Below are positions 2,770 to 39,860 of a stretch of DNA of 64,000 nt, piece after piece. The stretch covers positions 8,396,205 through 8,460,204 of the forward strand of contig OX422187.1 in the NCBI GenBank assembly GCA_949130485.1, given 5' to 3'. The stretch's first letter is position 1, and each line of letters opens with the position of its first letter. This DNA comes from Agelas oroides. Its lineage: Eukaryota > Porifera > Demospongiae > Agelasida > Agelasidae. The notes beneath the pieces are model-generated. The model saw only the letters and a program-made list of their open reading frames with translations, was not told the DNA's origin and searched no databases. The position numbers and the translations under genes are program-made.

Positions 2770-3715
2770 AGGCTAGCCTGGTTTGGGTGAGCCTGAGTGA
2801 GCCCCACCACAGGTGAGTTAAATTGTAATATACTATAGTGCGTGGGCGGATCAAAGGCGCCGCATGCGGTCATATATGGCATATACACCGCGCAGCGGCG
2901 ACCACAGGGAGTATATTGCTGAGTCAGGGATGCATATTTCAACCGCAAGGGAGTATATTGCTGAGTCAGGGGTGTATATTTGGCAATTCGTAACTGCAGC
3001 ACAGAGAAACGGGTTTTGCAATGGAATGGCCAATTCCCCCCAGTCCTCACTATAGCCTATAGGAGAGCCACTGCCAGCACTATAGACCCCTGTACTCAGT
3101 ACCAGCACAACAGCCAAAGCGTCGCACAATTTTCCAGGTTATTCGTGCAGCGATACAGTGCTTACCTGGTGTGTTGAACCACGCACGGCTGGACAGACGC
3201 TCGGATGCAGACGATAATTTCACTCGCCAGGCGGTTGATCCAGGGATAGCACTAGGACCAGTTTGTATTCGACGAGTCGTTGCCACCACTGTCAGTTGAA
3301 CTGTGAGGCTGGGCGTTCTACTGCCAGCTCGAACCATTGTTTCATGATCGCCAGCTTCCGAGAGCGGCTAGGTAGCAAGCTAGCTGCCCATCGGCATCAT
3401 GGCCGAGCGCCAGCAGCATATTGGTTTCAAGTCGACACGAGTGAAAGGCCCTTCGTCATGGCTCAGACTCCGCCTTGACTGCAGAGATGTATCGGGGGTC
3501 TTTTGGTGGCCTAAGCGTACTTAAACTCATCCTTTTCTAGTCAAAAAGCGGCAGCAACGCACAACGACACTAGCCTCGTCGATTCAAAATTCAAAAATGC
3601 AATACCGGAAACGGAACCGCTTACGTAATCCGCCCGCGCAGTATAGTATCAGAGAGTCAGTAGACTCTCTATGTAGGGATGGCGCCGACGCGCAATATAT
3701 GCAATACTTAAGCAA
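2770..3715. other. Non-coding, repeat fragments, no gene assigned
   Basis: Contains a GAGCCTGAGTGAGCCCC repeat arm near 2790, two copies of GGGAGTATATTGCTGAGTCAGGG (about 2907 and 2950), and a CpG-rich stretch up to 3690. The segment 3640-3690 (GAGAGTC...GACTCTC followed by CTATGTAGGGATGGCGC) recurs inverted near 33525-33560. Open frames on both strands here look fortuitous. Confidence 0.45.
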
Positions 3716-3890
3716 AAGCCGTATAACTTCACCACAAACACGCAAAAAGTTTATTTAAGCATCCAGGCTTCCTCTTTGAGTGCCTTTGTGATCAGCAAGA
3801 CTCATATAAGTGGCCAAAAGCCACGCAGAAGACAGCTAAACGCGAAAGTGTGCGATAGCAAAAGTGCCATTTTTCGTATTCTTCTTTCTT

Positions 3891-3963
<73 letters not shown>

Positions 3964-4180
3964 CTTCGTTACGACTTTTGTTCAAACAACAATAACTCAA
4001 AAACGGTTCAAGCACTCACCGTAATTTTAGCACGAAACTGATGCTTATCACAGCGCGGAGCTCTACGACCACTCAGCGTCTTCATAGCTTCAAGTTCACC
4101 CTGGTCAACAAAAGCCATTCACAACACTCTGAGGCTGCTGTGCGTTGCTTAGGACGCCATTTTCTAATTTTGTACGCATG
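3716..4180. repeat. Dispersed repeat copy 1 (pair of 34493-34880)
   Basis: From GCCGTATAACTTCACCAC through the CGCATGCGCAC near 4175 this segment matches 34493-34880 closely, including the block TTTGTGATCAGCAAGACTC and AAAGCCACGC-GAAGACAGC. The two copies differ mainly by the CT microsatellite present only here. Ends in an NRF1-like palindrome. No convincing protein. Confidence 0.75.
3883..3965. repeat. (CT)n / (CTTT)n microsatellite
   Basis: Long CT dinucleotide run flanked on both sides by TTTC tetranucleotides. Absent from the otherwise similar copy at 34493-34880, so it expanded after the duplication. It generates an artificial open frame of Ser/Leu repeats. Confidence 0.95.
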
Positions 4181-23306: not shown

Positions 23307-24044
23307 CTAATTAAAAGAGTAAACTTCATGAGTTTCACTGATGACTCTATCAGGACGGTCTGGAGGGAAGAAAAAACGAGTAACCCCTCTCGCAAAACCT
23401 ATGCCCAGCTGACGGTGGGAGAGAACGAAATCTGTTGCCATCCAGCCTTCGTTTGGCACCGTGCGAATGGGGAAATCTGTGTAAGCTAGGATCGATATTG
23501 GTTGTTGGGCACATGCATCATAAAGTAGGTCATAGCCATAGAAAAAGCTATCACGCAGTACAACAGGGATCCCATCCTCGCCGCCATATGTCCCATGTAT
23601 CATCATATCTCCAGTGAAATCCACCTGAAAGCTACCAATTCCCACCAGAAAGCATCTAGTAGTTGTTTTTCCATTCACCATCCAGCGGTTGTAAGGAGCT
23701 GTGACGTTGAATGGGAATGCTAGAAAATAGAATGTCGCATTTCCAATGATTCGCTGTCCCCGGTCATTAGGCTGTACAGAAGAAAAATCGAGACCAAATC
23801 GTGTGTTGTAATGATTCATGGCATTCTGCATTTCCTGTTGAATTTCTTCATCTGTGAAGCGCAAATTCTGTCGGTAGAAGTTCATTTCAGGATCAGCTAG
23901 CTGTCCCAGAACTGAGATGGGAAGGTCTATGGTGCTGACAATTTGGATCACAGCTTGCAGTCGTTCCTCACATGATTGGGCACTAGAAGCATGCAGCATA
24001 AGAAGGCCAAGGAAGGCCACACAGATCCATGTTGCAGAAAACAT
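23307..24044 (-). CDS. Secreted protein, unrecognised family, paralogue B
   Basis: Single coding exon for 245 aa. The ATG at 24044 is preceded on the minus strand by TGCATTTTCAG, a splice acceptor; a donor AAAG|GTGAAT at 24136 would give a 92-bp 5'-UTR intron (24045-24136). Residues 1-23 are a signal peptide ending SSAQ. The mature protein keeps the three cysteines of paralogue A (C25, C131, C178), the GNATF sequon (N102) and a second sequon at N113. Conserved core blocks are FYRQ-LRFTDEEI, FGLDFSS, GQRIIGNATF, YNRW-VNGK, YGGEDG and DACAQQ. The C-terminal third is more diverged. Presumably secreted or cell-surface attached; biochemical role unknown. The gene lies 21 kb from paralogue A in the same orientation, with only repeats recognised between. 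Confidence 0.86.
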   Translation of the reverse strand: MFSATWICVAFLGLLMLHASSAQSCEERLQAVIQIVSTIDLPISVLGQLADPEMNFYRQNLRFTDEEIQQEMQNAMNHYNTRFGLDFSSVQPNDRGQRIIGNATFYFLAFPFNVTAPYNRWMVNGKTTTRCFLVGIGSFQVDFTGDMMIHGTYGGEDGIPVVLRDSFFYGYDLLYDACAQQPISILAYTDFPIRTVPNEGWMATDFVLSHRQLGIGFARGVTRFFFPPDRPDRVISETHEVYSFN

Positions 24045-24136
24045 CTGAAAATGCAAGAAAATAATTATTCACTGTGTACATGGTGACATGCATACTCAGT
24101 GATGATAAAGCAGACTTAGTTGCAGGTAATATTCAC
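24045..24136 (-). other. Predicted 5'-UTR intron of paralogue B
   Basis: On the minus strand AAAG|GTGAATATT is a plausible donor and TTGCATTTTCAG|ATG the acceptor. 92 bp matches the size of other introns here (64-143 bp). The position, immediately before the ATG, is shared with paralogue A. Confidence 0.55.
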
Positions 24137-33379: not shown

Positions 33380-34492
33380 ATACGAATTGAAATGTGTGTC
33401 TGAATTATAAAACTCAAGAGTGTGGATTCGATTCAGAGAGCAGGAGACAACTCGGCAGAGTACACCCACAGAGGTGAGGCACAGGCTAATGCAACAGTAT
33501 TTTAAATTCTAAATATATTGCGTGTCTGCGCCATCCCTACATAGAGAGTCTACCGACTCTGACACAGATCGAGTGTGACAAAGGTATGAAACTGACAACT
33601 GCTAGGCACATAGCTGGTCAGATCAAGAACAAAGAACAGGCTGAGCCCTTGTCAACTTGTCTAAAGAGGAATCATGGCACTTGAGGTACCAGAGAGCCTG
33701 GCTGCTACAATGCCATAGGTTTTACTGTTAGGTAGTGGAATCATTGGTTACAGTAAGGGTCAATGTTGGGCAGGTAACACATTGTTTCTGATCTAGCTAA
33801 TGCAGTCATCTACTACGAGTTATAAATACTTGTGGAGGACAAGAAAAACATGATAGCCTTGTGTCCAGACCATTCTCAATTCCCTTTCAGTGTGCTAAAG
33901 TGGAGGGGGGAGGCCTGAGAGATCTCGTTACGTACAGTGACATTGGGTAGCATCATGGGTAGCATCAGCTAGACATAAGGTAGACATATGGGGACGATGT
34001 CCCGCAAAAGATCTCAATCCCCTTTCTTGCTACACATGCACACACATGCACACCAAAAGTTCCTGGCCTCCCCGTGGCGGCGTGCAGGAGGGAAGCACCT
34101 TAGCTATACCTGAACCACAGCCCCACCATATACCCTTTGAGCCTATGACTACCACAACCTCTTTACGCCAAGGTGTTTCCCTGCAAACTAGGAGCTGATG
34201 TTTACCCCTTGTCAGACGGCCTGTCCATAGACCAATTACCTGTCCATACACCGATCACCCTATTTAATGCACATCCTATGGATTACAGCAGTAACAGCAT
34301 TACTCCCCAAACTTATATGTGTGGTGTGGGGAACTGACATTTTCCTTTCCTTATGGAGAACTGGGGACCATTTTCATTCTGAAAGTACACAATTTTCTTG
34401 CATCTCTCCATTTCTTTCACACCTAGCTCCTTGACATAGTTAGTCACAACAATTGGCACCCATTCTTTCACTATATGCAATACAAAACTTAA
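33313..34492. other. (TA)n microsatellite and unassigned sequence
   Basis: A TA dinucleotide run occupies about 33343-33377. 33525-33560 is the inverse of 3640-3690. No gene recognised in the remainder. Confidence 0.5.
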
Positions 34493-34880
34493 AGCCGTAT
34501 AACTTCACCACAAACACGCTAAAAGCTTACTTAATCGCCCAGGCTTCCTCTTTGAGTGGCTTTGTGATCAGCAAGACTCATATAAGTGGCCAAAAGCCAC
34601 GCGGAAGACAGCTAAACGCGAAAGTGTGCGGTAGCGAAAGTGCCATTTTTCTTATTCTTCAGTGTCTTCAGACCACTATGTTCAACGATGATATCTCGAA
34701 AACAGTTTGAGTACTCACCGTAAAATCAGCACGAAACTGGTGCTTATCACAGCGCGCAGCTCCAAGACCACTCAGCATTTACATACTTTTCAGTGAATCC
34801 ATACTAGTCATTCACGGCCACACTTACCAGCCGACCGTTGCGTGGGACGCCATTTTTATGACTTTGTGCGCATGCGTATG
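34493..34880. repeat. Dispersed repeat copy 2 (pair of 3716-4180)
   Basis: Same blocks in the same order as 3716-4180 but without the CT expansion. Ends with GTGCGCATGCG, again an NRF1-like palindrome, followed by a GGAGACGGTTCCACTTC stretch. Confidence 0.75.
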
Positions 34881-35887: not shown

Positions 35888-37618
35888 AAGCATTACTAGC
35901 CCCATCTCTCCCCCTTATGTTGCTAAACAACTCACGGCTCTGTTCCACACACAACCACTCTTCAGCTTTCTTGTCCACTTCAGCCGCTCACAGCTACTGA
36001 CACTACAGCGCTCTACTAAACTCCTCTTTTTTTTTCTTTTTTTTGAGCATAACCGCACCACAAGTGGAAAGAAAACGGTGACTGGAGTGCAGGTGGTAAC
36101 TGCATCCCAAGTGCAAAGTATCAGGTGTAGTTGGCAGGCCATTTCGTCCTGCCCATAGCAGACCATTGAGCAGATCCACTAGAGGCACACACTTTCAGGT
36201 ACATGGTGAGCAAGCAGCAAGGGCATAACTTTGACTAAGAGAAACCCACTAACTACACATAGTGTGGAAGCCTAGCTAGAAGACAAAAGTGGAACAGGGA
36301 ACAGGGGATTGGAGTTCGGTGCACAATCCAGCTTCCATAGTCGTTGGGTGTATATAGAGGTGAAGCTTACTTGGTATTGCCCGTGTAGAAAAGGGGTGCT
36401 AATAGGTGGTAATTGAAGCCATGTAGAGGTAAGATGATACAAAGGCAGCCAACTTGCTGGGCAGAAGATGGCCATGCTACTGTTGTATGCATCTATATCT
36501 AAATTGTATAGAAAATATGAACACCACACAAATGCTACTGAGAGACATCAGTCGGTGTTGTAAAGAACCACCGTTGCCATCAAAAGCACTGTGGAGGCAT
36601 GAAATGTGCTGTAGTGCAGCAAGCCTGTAGCAAAATGTTCACTTCACTTAAGTATCAAAGTGACTTGCAGCTCAGTGTGGCTGTGCTGTGTCGGTAGTCT
36701 GCTACCAGAACGTTGTAACTAATAGACCTAGCTTGTAAACAGCATACCCACCTTAGTCATTATACAATGCTCCAGAGGTGCAAGTCAGGATGAAGGTTAG
36801 TGTAGTCACTGAAGTGTCAACATTTTTGATCATAACTCAGGTTAGCAGTGGTTTAAAAATAAATTGTATATCCTCATTTTTAGCAAACGTAAGTACCTTC
36901 ATGCTAAGATAGGTGGTTTGGGCACTGTAAAATCCTGTGTCACCATAGGTCTCATTTCATGACGGCAAATGTTTGGCCCTGTATAGTCTCCATGGATTAC
37001 CTCTCAGGCTTAGTACTCTAACTGAAGATTCTTCAATGATAACTGTATCCAGCTGTGGTGTCAAACTTCAGTAAGTACTCTCAGGCTTGGAAAGACAGGC
37101 TAAAACATTGGACATACACATGCACTTAGGTGGCTTTTCATTCATTCATTCATTCATTATTAATTAATTACTATAATTTTTTTCTTTCCACTTGTGGTGT
37201 AATAAGTCGATCTAAGCTTATCTTCAAAGTTCCGACCACCACATGAGGGGTTCCGCCAGGCCACATCTTAACTAACTTAATTATAAACTGATTATTGGAT
37301 GCCAATGCCAACAGGAAATGGGGAAAATCCCCAATTTTACGGACAGTGAACGGTTTGAGACTCCCAAAATGGACTGTGCACTAAAATTTTAAGAAGACAA
37401 AGAATTCTATCAGCTTGGATTCCAGGTTTGTCGACCTTGAAAGTGCAGGGTTCTCTGCCACCTTAAAAAGAGTTTATATTGCACCACGGTATTCAGTTAA
37501 ACCACGTTGTACTAACCGCCCATACATTTTATACTTGGGTGTACTACAATAGTTATCCCGTACAATATATACTCACTGTGCTTCTTACATTGAGCTAACG
37601 AATACCATTCCTATCATA
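35888..37618. other. No gene recognised
   Basis: Contains a T-rich run near 36027, a (CATT)n tract at 37139-37158 and a long AT-rich stretch leading to the Helitron-like gene. No exon set with splice support found. Confidence 0.45.
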
Positions 37619-39860
37619 ATGCATTTTTTGCTCACGTGTTTGTGGGTATGGCTCATCGTCTTACGCTTGTCTCCAACCCACTGCCACGATCTGTCAATGA
37701 CATCCATCACTGGAGAATCCCCTGAGACAGTCAGGTTTGCCTCCCATATATTGCTTGATAGCTATGGGGTAGTTGCTATTGACTGGAAAAGTTCAAACCG
37801 TCTCAGGCTTAAAACACGAAGTATATACCGGGTTCATCTACAAAGGCTATACAGGGTTCATCGGCCAGCAGCAGTTATTGTGACTCTGTTGTTGGCCTCT
37901 GGGGACATTGAAACTAACCCTGGCCCTGTACAGTACCCGTGTACTGTATGCGAAAAACCTGTAAAGAGGAACCAATGTGGCATTATGTGTGATGACTGTA
38001 GTCAGTAGACACATGCTAATTGTGGTGGTGTGGAAGAGGCTGAATACCTGCTGCTTAGTGTTCAGGAAAGTTGTGAATGGTTCTGTCCACTCTGCATACG
38101 ATCAAAGCTTCCAATTGCTAGCTTGAGCCTCTCGGGTCTTAACAGCTCATTACAACCCAAAATAGATGAGGTTAGCGTCACCCTCTCCGATACCAAGCTC
38201 CCTGGTGTAAGTGAGACCAGTATTCAGCATTCAGGATCACATAATGAAGACCATGACAAGAAGCAGAGTACAAAAAATAGAAATTACTATGAAAGACATA
38301 AAGCAAGGATACTGGCGAAACAAAAACAGAAATATAAGGGAAATGCTGAGGTAAAAAAAGCTGCCTCACGTTTACAATATGATGCTGATCTGGAATCCAA
38401 AAAGACCGCTGCACGTGCCCGATATGCTAAAAATTCCAAAACAAAAATTGAGCACTCTAGAACATATTATACAAAGAACAAACAAAGCATTTGTGTTAAA
38501 GCAAGGGATAAATATTCACTGTGCAAGCCAAAGCTTGCTAAAGTAGAGATGTATCTGCAGGAAATAGAAACCAATCTGTTAGAAAATTCAAAAGCAAGGC
38601 TTGCATTGATAAAAGGATTAAAGAAACAGCACAAAACACAAGCAGAGCAAGCAACGTGGGGTTTTGGGTAAAACTGCCTGTCGATTAGCCACTAAACGGC
38701 TACTCAACAAAGCTTTGCAAGTGCGAAAGGAGCATGCTGGGTGTTTGCTGAAGATGGTTAGATCAATCCAGAGTCTGCAGATTAAAGGAAAGAATGATTT
38801 TGGTGAAAGCGGCCATACAGCTTCTACTGCATGAGCCTTACTTTCACGATTCTGCTTACCAGCTTGTGAAAAGGCCCCATGCCATACCAATTGATGAGAA
38901 TGGGAAGTGCATAATTGCCAAGCAAGTTAAGAAAGAAAGTGGATGGAAGCAATGGCAGTGTACCCATGAATGCAAAGGTATAACCCCAAGTGAAGAGCTC
39001 TCCATTCAAACAGTCATTTGAGTGCTCCGTACTCGAGATAAATGTGATGAGTGTCCTCATACAGATTACACTAAAACCTCAGGGGGTTCGCTATAGACCG
39101 TAAAGGTCACCCCTTGATTTGTTTCATTGGTACTGGATGCAAAAGTCAACTTAGGATTTTGAGAGTAGCAGCTACTCCTTTGTTGCGAAAATTCTTACAC
39201 GATGTACACACTGCTATCAGAGGTCATGTGTTTGTCCATGACATTGACCAAGCTCTGTGTGCTGGTGGCTTCTGTGCACTGATGGAACTCACCGAGATGA
39301 CCGACTTTGAAACTATGTTGACAAATGATGTGGAATCAACGTACGAGCAGTGCACTGATTCCACTGTTGAGACAGTGTTTCCACAACTAGAATCACAGCT
39401 TGTGGTTACTCATGCGAAGCTAATCACTCAGCTAGAGAAAGAAATCAATGATTATCTAGAGCATGTTTGCTGCAGCTGTGAACAACTGCACCAAAGGATA
39501 TCTGTCACACGAGTGAACATTTCTGACAACCTTGGCAGTGAGGTTTGGGAAGGAATGAAGAGCTTTATTTTACAACAGAACCCAAGTGCGTGTGACATGT
39601 TTATGCGCAAGTATTATAAACCTCTCATTATATATATAGGAACAACAAGTTACCAGCACGTTGTGTCCTAAACAGTTTGCAATTAGACCCAGTACCCCCA
39701 GAGCTAGCTGCTCATTAGATACTTTACATAAAGAGCATTCCAGACTGCAGGCATTATCTATCATACTGAACATCTGCTACCTGCACACAGGGCTTCACCA
39801 TACAGGTACGTATGAAGGTATTATCTTTCTGTAATGTAGATTTGTTGCATGCAACACACA
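37619..39860 (+). pseudogene. Helitron-like protein with 2A peptide and PHD finger, decayed
   Basis: Reading from the ATG at 37619: a hydrophobic N-terminus (residues 1-20, signal-like), a 2A motif DIETNPGP (residues 96-103), then a PHD finger (CxxC, CxxC, HxxC, CxxC with the usual WFC before the last pair). A TAG at 38006 sits where PHD fingers have Trp. The same frame continues to 38671 with a Lys-rich region of about 15-residue repeats (KY-Y-RY-YY spacing). After frameshifts come pieces with EPYFHDSAYQLV (38840-39020) and a long open stretch (39114-39640) ending near KYYKPL; in another frame LPARCVLNSLQLDPVPPEL follows (39650-39710). From memory these are typical of the DUF6570 region of Helitron proteins of sponges and cnidarians. 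No Rep or helicase domain is present, so it is a 5' fragment. Confidence 0.75.
37904..37927 (+). other. 2A ribosome-skipping motif (DIETNPGP)
   Basis: Matches the canonical D-x-E-x-N-P-G-P with Leu/Ala/Ser/Gly just upstream (TLLLASG), as in functional 2A sequences. Skipping would release residues 1-102 with the hydrophobic N-terminus from the PHD-containing downstream product. The motif itself is intact although the gene is dead. Confidence 0.9.

Follow-up and report, generated by a model that had tools for sequence, protein, structure and literature searches.

The window examined here, a 64,000-nucleotide stretch of the genome of the sponge Agelas oroides, carries a decayed Helitron whose protein begins with a hydrophobic leader, a 2A (StopGo) motif and a PHD finger, a front end that is shared with LINE retrotransposons of the same genome. 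Intact relatives hold this order in one open reading frame that continues into the Rep and helicase domains, and the front end is under selective constraint. Probably, this Helitron took the cassette from LINEs, and its transposase would be freed from the leader by ribosome skipping at the 2A.

The Helitron copy in the window

The stretch homologous to the Helitron family termed H1 spans positions 37567-39709 and is a truncated, frame-broken 5′ part of the gene. Alignments with other H1 loci by blastn (78-94% DNA identity) start at 37567 or 37570 and end at 39709 or 39714. The preliminary description of this DNA had given the extent as 37619..39860. Its start, an ATG at 37619, stands, and its end is about 150 bases too far downstream because homology with the other copies ends at 39709/39714. 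The frame opened by this ATG includes the leader, the 2A, the finger and the Lys-rich repeats, is interrupted by one in-frame TAG at 38006-38008, and meets its next stop at 38669. When the intact H1 protein is used as a tblastn query, the window copy appears as five same-strand pieces in three frames, collinear with H1 residues 1-763, which agrees with the earlier view of a single degenerate gene read in one direction. The rest of the H1 protein (Rep, helicase and OTU) has no match in the window at E 1e-3 by tblastn. The features of the copy are as follows.

37567..39709, + strand: H1-homologous stretch, a truncated and broken 5′ gene part (blastn, tblastn)
37619..37873, + strand: leader, with a signal-like N-terminus (about 37619-37675) and then a segment common to LINE leaders (hydropathy, profile)
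37874..37927, + strand: 2A/StopGo segment VIVTLLLASGDIETNPGP (sequence, H1 copy comparison)
37940..38095, + strand: PHD finger, C4HC3, Pygopus-like, with the TAG inside at 38006-38008 (Pfam, solved relatives)
38267..38520, + strand: Lys-rich repeats, as noted earlier, approximately where similarity to a module-less Helitron sets in (translation, alignment)
38622..38828, + strand: H1 residues 392-463, in a different frame (tblastn)
38833..39087, + strand: H1 residues 464-556, in a different frame, with one stop and a small deletion (tblastn)
39084..39629, + strand: H1 residues 556-739, just before DUF6570 (tblastn, 91%)
39638..39709, + strand: H1 residues 740-763, the opening 23 or so residues of DUF6570, where the copy is cut off (tblastn)

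The region previously called DUF6570-like is Helitron-specific sequence that lies almost entirely upstream of this domain, and the Pfam model for DUF6570 gives no match in the window at 39075-39668. In the intact H1 protein the domain occupies open-frame residues 760-898, which are residues 741-879 when counted from the first Met. Homology in the window ends at residue 763 on the latter count, and thus DUF6570 is represented here by no more than its initial 23 or so residues, at approximately 39641-39709.

Other features of the window were also recorded. A dispersed repeat of 264 bases is located just upstream of the Helitron copy, at 37203-37466, and is 92-93% identical to sequences near two other H1 loci (L010 and L013). 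Elsewhere, two related open frames on the reverse strand (1541-2335 and 23307-24068) share 41% identity over 249 residues. Both have signal-like N-termini and match no Pfam family up to E 1, and they are perhaps a pair of secreted proteins.

Intact Helitrons with the same front end

The genome searched is a 259 Mb assembly of 141 contigs, with the window on contig C5. The leader-2A-finger part of the window copy yields 91 matches in this genome, the best of which, other than itself, is 88% identical. An intact H1 copy (C1:23068644) is an open frame of 2390 codons with the order leader, 2A, PHD, Lys-rich repeats, DUF6570, Rep, PIF1 helicase and OTU. Domains above their Pfam cut-offs include PHD, DUF6570, Helitron_like_N (E 5.2e-26), PIF1 (E 2.3e-23) and the PIF1 2B domain, and OTU falls just below its cut-off (22.2 versus 23.3 bits). 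The three Pfam families that the preliminary description had named, PHD, DUF6570 and Helitron_like_N, are therefore all found in the intact copy; the window copy gives only a weak PHD match and stops before Rep. A scan with NCBIfam returned helicase and relaxase names only. Both intact H1 and intact H2 copies have a Walker A motif and the HxH and YxxxY motifs of Rep, which read HYH and YVSGY in H1 (L009) and HAH and YLSKY in H2 (L016). Pfam revealed no AP endonuclease of the Helentron C-terminal type up to E 1 in the 2390-residue H1 protein, and no reverse transcriptase in the intact H1 or H2 proteins.

Intact relatives with the same order up to the Rep and helicase domains, the existence of which had been raised as a question, are thus present in the same genome. 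The combination of 2A-PHD and Helitron is not peculiar to the window copy, since the intact frame has both, and the downstream part of the window copy was rightly seen as Helitron-like, as it matches a protein with Rep and PIF1. A second H1 copy, at C11:4973059, matches the intact one over 9.7 kb at 98.8% identity, its frame being split into three long pieces. Family H2 (C1:10533813) has a frame of 1749 codons with a 2A, PHD, charged repeats, DUF6570, Rep and PIF1, and family H3 (C2:23761507) is represented by a decayed copy with a 2A and a finger. The fully open frames that were read comprise one H1 and one H2. In the H1 copy L015 (1557-4742) there are ten to eleven near-identical 19-residue Lys-rich repeats, and therefore repeat number differs strongly among H1 copies.

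The 5′ end of H1, at about L009:1465, starts with ATATCAGAGAG and has a perfect palindrome with 8-base arms. Of the 41 rows listed, 39 have their start at query positions 16-29, about ten bases or less from this end. On the 3′ side the element extends past a CA repeat. Four segments of the window (3647-3897, 3950-4050, 33513-33560 and 34469-34749) match this palindromic 5′ end. The genome holds 1912 candidates for it (best 40 of 1912 scored), and the matches likely reflect a large set of non-autonomous relatives.

The leader and the 2A motif

The canonical 2A motif reported earlier (DIETNPGP at 37904-37927) is borne out: the segment ends at 37927 in frame with the ATG at 37619, and NPGP occurs once in all six frames of the window. 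Genome-wide, a DNA pattern for the 2A matches 285 times (159 on the forward strand and 126 on the reverse), and the reversed control never does. Eleven H1 copies, including that of the window, were compared out of about 17 long H1 matches. Their 18 2A residues are identical save for I/V and T/S exchanges, and all eleven have D[VI]ExNPGP with a preceding hydrophobic stretch.

The N-terminus is signal-like, as had been proposed, with a hydropathy of 2.27 in the window that is matched by 35 of 2000 shuffles. That of intact H1 is above 1987 of 2000 shuffles. In these comparisons the start Met was chosen by hand, and the H2 leader is too short to score. Among 15 LINE leaders scored, 14 have a hydropathy maximum of at least 1.6; between 5 and 166 of 2000 shuffles reach their values, such that individually not all are significant, and the leader of L032 is not hydrophobic. 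A profile was also built from 17 sufficiently long LINE leaders, including L032 and L040, which have no reverse transcriptase match. With this profile the H1 leader reaches 18.4 bits, and the highest of 999 scored shuffles reaches 11.9. The H2 leader obtains 2.0 bits, a value equalled or bettered by 204 of 1000 shuffles, and the scores of four host 2A leaders are unremarkable. These scores indicate that H1 shares the whole leader-2A-PHD with LINEs; for H2, a link to LINEs can be asserted only for the 2A-PHD.

Many 2A motifs of the genome cluster in host-like multigene families (C1:4605-645814, C1:3025738-3226375, C1:4062303-5095709 and C2:5066252; loci L064-L067 and L078). In four loci read, a hydrophobic leader ends in NPGP and is followed by a splice-donor-like GT. 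Three next exons were scanned, giving a Death domain above the Pfam cut-off at L066 (3.5e-7) and matches below it at L065 (4.8e-4) and L078 (4.3e-3). On C1, 10 of 86 listed 2A sites coincide with transposon-type matches, as counted by eye. These host-like leader clusters resemble the 2A leaders of sea urchin NLR proteins.

The PHD finger and selection on the module

The PHD finger predicted earlier has the C4HC3 layout and lies at about 37940-38095. Its Pfam match in the window is weak (E 1.3e-3, 19.1 bits, under the cut-off of 24, with the stop read as X), that of intact H1 is just above the cut-off (E 2.8e-5, 24.5 bits), and that of H2 is also above it (26.4 bits). Among solved structures, the best relatives of the intact H1 finger are Pygopus PHDs (E 2.8e-11), which the H2 finger matches at E 2.2e-7. 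The finger of one LINE, L020, places PHF8 (1.1e-6) slightly ahead of Pygopus (1.4e-6). The H1 finger keeps the Y and W that align with Pygopus, at positions that we take to have a role in the histone pocket.

Over 161 module codons, dN/dS is 0.15-0.34 in seven comparisons among H1 copies other than that of the window, and 0.22-0.35 overall in four comparisons with the window copy; these pairs have branches in common and so do not count as independent, and the set includes decayed copies. By part, the comparisons among non-window copies give 0.16-0.37 for the segment preceding the 2A, 0-0.18 for the 2A itself and 0.12-0.61 for the finger, which alone is under less constraint than the whole module in some pairs. 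The leader-2A-PHD module is under purifying selection.

LINEs with the same front end

LINEs with a 2A-PHD front, a pairing that the preliminary description had associated with LINE-type retrotransposons of invertebrates, exist in the same genome and continue into endonuclease and reverse transcriptase domains. For example, the LINE L020 (1144 codons) has a hydrophobic leader, the motif GDVEQNPGP, a finger, an endonuclease and a reverse transcriptase, with a PHD match under the cut-off of 24 (E 2.5e-4, 21.4 bits). NPGP is present in 24 of 29 LINE-candidate loci read.

We collected 118 module-like places as distinct loci from three overlapping match sets (91, 108 and 125 rows). The rows omitted are mostly weak, plus two strong leader-only LINE rows (C13:4384589 and C6:4736126). 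The places are similar to leader-2A-PHD queries, and not every one shows a 2A. Helitron domains follow 21 of them, a LINE reverse transcriptase follows at least 38, and neither lies behind 59 within the limits used, among the matches listed. The reverse transcriptase assignments are 48 rows from 151 matches for the best 150 of 1539 candidates, and thus a missing assignment does not signify absence. The window copy is counted among the 59 because its DUF6570 is cut. Among the 21 Helitron-linked places, one is an additional 5′ fragment ahead of an element already counted, another lies at a distance of 6.2 kb, and the one at C45 has its finger cut by the contig end. In all, 19 of 158 merged Helitron loci have a module-like place within 5 kb upstream, where simple arithmetic gives about 0.2 expected by chance.

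Outside this genome, a scan of genome contigs revealed two LINE-type frames with a 2A, both in bacterial MAG records. Pfam finds a reverse transcriptase and an endonuclease in them and no PHD, the finger having been recognized by eye. Viral contigs scanned with the leader-2A part, the region before DUF6570 and the module alignment yielded no relatives.

Helitrons without the module

Other Helitrons of the genome lack the front end. The Helitron at C16:5518166 has an open frame of 2289 that starts directly at the Lys-rich repeats. It shares 51% identity with H1 across 707 residues, and its alignments with H1 start within these repeats, at H1 residues 206-230. A six-frame reading of the 1.05 kb upstream of this element and of the next 2.7 kb shows no NPGP, and the motif is likewise absent from the stretches read ahead of the Helitrons C1:16287147, C20:4181942 and C2:9147636. 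At L048 (149-2701), in the module-less Helitron, the 15-residue repeats SSHTRYWEDPETKRA can be read without stops in several frames simultaneously, which may reflect a recent expansion of the repeats.

A tree of eight Rep sequences pairs H1 with the module-less C16 element (support 100/99) and groups H2 and H3 with C1:16287 (99/98). In this tree the partial row L074 was dropped, and L072 and L073 are termed module-less in the sense that no listed match is nearby. Forcing the three module-bearers into a single clade is rejected (p 1.3e-6). By this tree, H2 and H3 are a second Helitron lineage with a 2A-PHD, deeply separate from H1. The module was either gained at least twice or lost repeatedly, since the Rep tree rejects the module-bearing Helitrons as one clade; gain and loss both fit, and the tree cannot tell them apart.

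Relationships among the modules

The 2A-PHD tree has 32 rows, 25 of them labelled as LINEs, and among the matches listed a reverse transcriptase lies behind 19 of these and not behind L033, L039, L040, L042, L044 and L053. L007 and L036 are absent for want of a usable row, and nearly identical rows were pruned. H1 forms one group (99/97), H2 and H3 form a pair (97/91), and all Helitron modules fall inside a 14-row part together with seven LINEs (85/77). The Helitron modules occupy one side of a branch with a support of only 46/14. With fewer rows, H1 joins the LINE L021 (83/81), showing that its placement is unstable. A single clade of H1 and seven chosen LINEs is not rejected (p 0.43), the group having been picked after the tree was seen.

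Relative to the LINE modules L018, L020, L029, L030 and L031, the H1 row L002 is 47-56% identical and the H1 row L015 is 42-52% identical; these LINE modules are 48-61% identical among themselves, and L030 and L040 share 40%. Agreement between the reverse transcriptase tree and the module tree, which would show old vertical descent within LINEs, is only partial. L019 and L022 are a pair in the reverse transcriptase tree (85/92) and in the 32-row module tree (95/91), L022 joins L024 rather than L019 in the smaller module tree, and L018 and L020 are near each other in the module tree without being a pair.

Proposed mechanism and alternative explanations

The explanation that we prefer is a Helitron whose probably LINE-derived front end would divide the protein during translation. 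The ribosome would first make a hydrophobic leader of about 100 residues, would then skip the Gly-Pro bond at the predicted 2A, and would continue with a PHD-Rep-helicase protein that starts with Pro. Most of the transposase would in this way be freed from the signal-like leader and go to the nucleus, and the unskipped fraction would keep the leader and enter the secretory route. The PHD finger, a predicted histone H3 binder, probably holds the transposase at chromatin marked on this histone.

Ribosome skipping by the H1 2A is predicted from its sequence, and one could instead suppose that the 2A is a relic and the leader an ordinary signal or membrane segment of a protein made uncut. The strict motif is not preserved in several LINE relatives, which have GDVQ, GDIG or GDVH before xNPGP, and 5 of the 29 LINE-candidate loci lack NPGP. 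This explanation seems rather unlikely, as all 11 H1 copies compared retain the motif amid silent substitutions. Moreover, Rep and helicase must reach the nucleus. A different doubt concerns the copy itself, whose several frames and pieces might suggest a LINE 2A/PHD fragment that came to lie by chance beside an unrelated Helitron fragment. Such a chimera, offered as an alternative in the preliminary description, is scarcely credible given that the 2A/PHD and DUF6570 parts are not confined to separate elements but are joined in the intact 2390-codon frame, that homology between the window and other H1 copies extends to both flanks of the presumed junction, and that, among the matches listed, reverse transcriptase and Helitron domains never occur together behind any of the 118 module-like places.

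The direction of transfer is less firmly indicated. The preliminary description had suggested that Helitrons acquired a LINE-type 2A/PHD module. That an intact Helitron carries such a module is established, and the direction from LINEs, on at least two occasions, is favoured but falls short of proof, given how short and unstable the module trees are. This direction is favoured by the 25 LINE-labelled rows (at least 19 with a reverse transcriptase match) versus three Helitron families, by the existence of Helitron relatives without the module, and by the two LINE-type 2A frames in outside MAG records; the latter have long branches and no Pfam finger and do not themselves fix the direction. The same three observations make it unlikely that the cassette arose in Helitrons and passed from them to LINEs, an order of events with which its presence in two deep Helitron lineages and the unrooted state of the module trees would agree. 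It is also conceivable that LINEs and Helitrons each built the front end from host parts, combining a Pygopus-like PHD with a 2A leader exon. The host-like clusters do have 2A leaders, some followed by Death-domain-like exons, and the transposon fingers are Pygopus-like. However, the H1 leader fits LINE leaders as the four host leaders tested do not, and leader, 2A and PHD stand in the same order in H1 and LINEs, which renders separate assembly quite improbable.

Beyond the probably LINE-derived front end of H1, a broader proposal can be put forward only tentatively. It holds that a portable leader-2A-PHD cassette moves between LINEs and Helitrons, has entered Helitrons at least twice, and serves both as a protein-splitting switch and as a chromatin reader that steers insertion. 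We consider this possible but doubtful as a whole. To our knowledge, Helitrons and LINEs have no common replication machinery. If the shared, selected front cassette is what it seems, the start of a protein would be a detachable unit open to exchange between very different elements, and this unit would set the mode of translation, the destination and the landing place on chromatin. The same leader-2A-PHD on two unrelated engines would constitute a natural test, for which module-less Helitrons in the same genome could serve as controls.

Comparison with known systems

We found no description of a 2A or a PHD finger on a Helitron in the open-licence PMC literature, with Repbase-type records outside this scope, and the 2A-PHD front of these Helitrons is apparently undescribed there. 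Like Helitron, Helitron2 and Helentron elements, as described in PMC4067079, H1 has an HUH Rep and a PIF1 helicase in one frame; unlike them, it has an N-terminal leader, a 2A and a PHD finger. According to the same source, Helentrons carry an OTU-like protease and other genes (RPA, SET), and Helitron2 elements have terminal palindromes. Unlike Helentrons as described there, intact H1 has no C-terminal endonuclease detectable by Pfam.

CR1/L2-type LINEs with an N-terminal PHD (PMC4120745) have a front finger in a single frame, as do the LINEs found here. Behind the finger they have an endonuclease and a reverse transcriptase, whereas H1 has Rep-helicase. In general terms, the LINE PHD is proposed there to help target the genome. 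The text of that paper uses neither 'Helitron' nor '2A-like'. The H1 finger shares with the Pygopus PHD (PDB 2xb1 and 2vpe) the C4HC3 layout, the opening YPC, the W that precedes the His and the stretch that follows, a likeness of sequence alone.

Sea urchin NLRs, as presented in PMC4981915, resemble H1 in having a signal-like N-terminus and a 2A near the front. The NLR is a cytoplasmic protein, and these are host immune genes, whereas H1 is a transposase; PHD is not mentioned in the text. The same paper describes the sea urchin N-terminal 2As as simultaneously a signal sequence and a recoding element, for which dual targeting has been shown, and this offers a published parallel for the switch in protein targeting that the preliminary description had raised. 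Taken together with the LINE proposal, it suggests that skipping could free PHD-Rep-helicase for the nucleus, where the finger would steer it. Finally, the fish Helitrons with texim, an esterase gene related to CR1 proteins (PMC4021074), provide a case of a CR1-related gene on a Helitron. In that system, texim is a captured, intron-bearing gene beside the transposon genes, whereas the H1 module is the front domain of the transposase itself.
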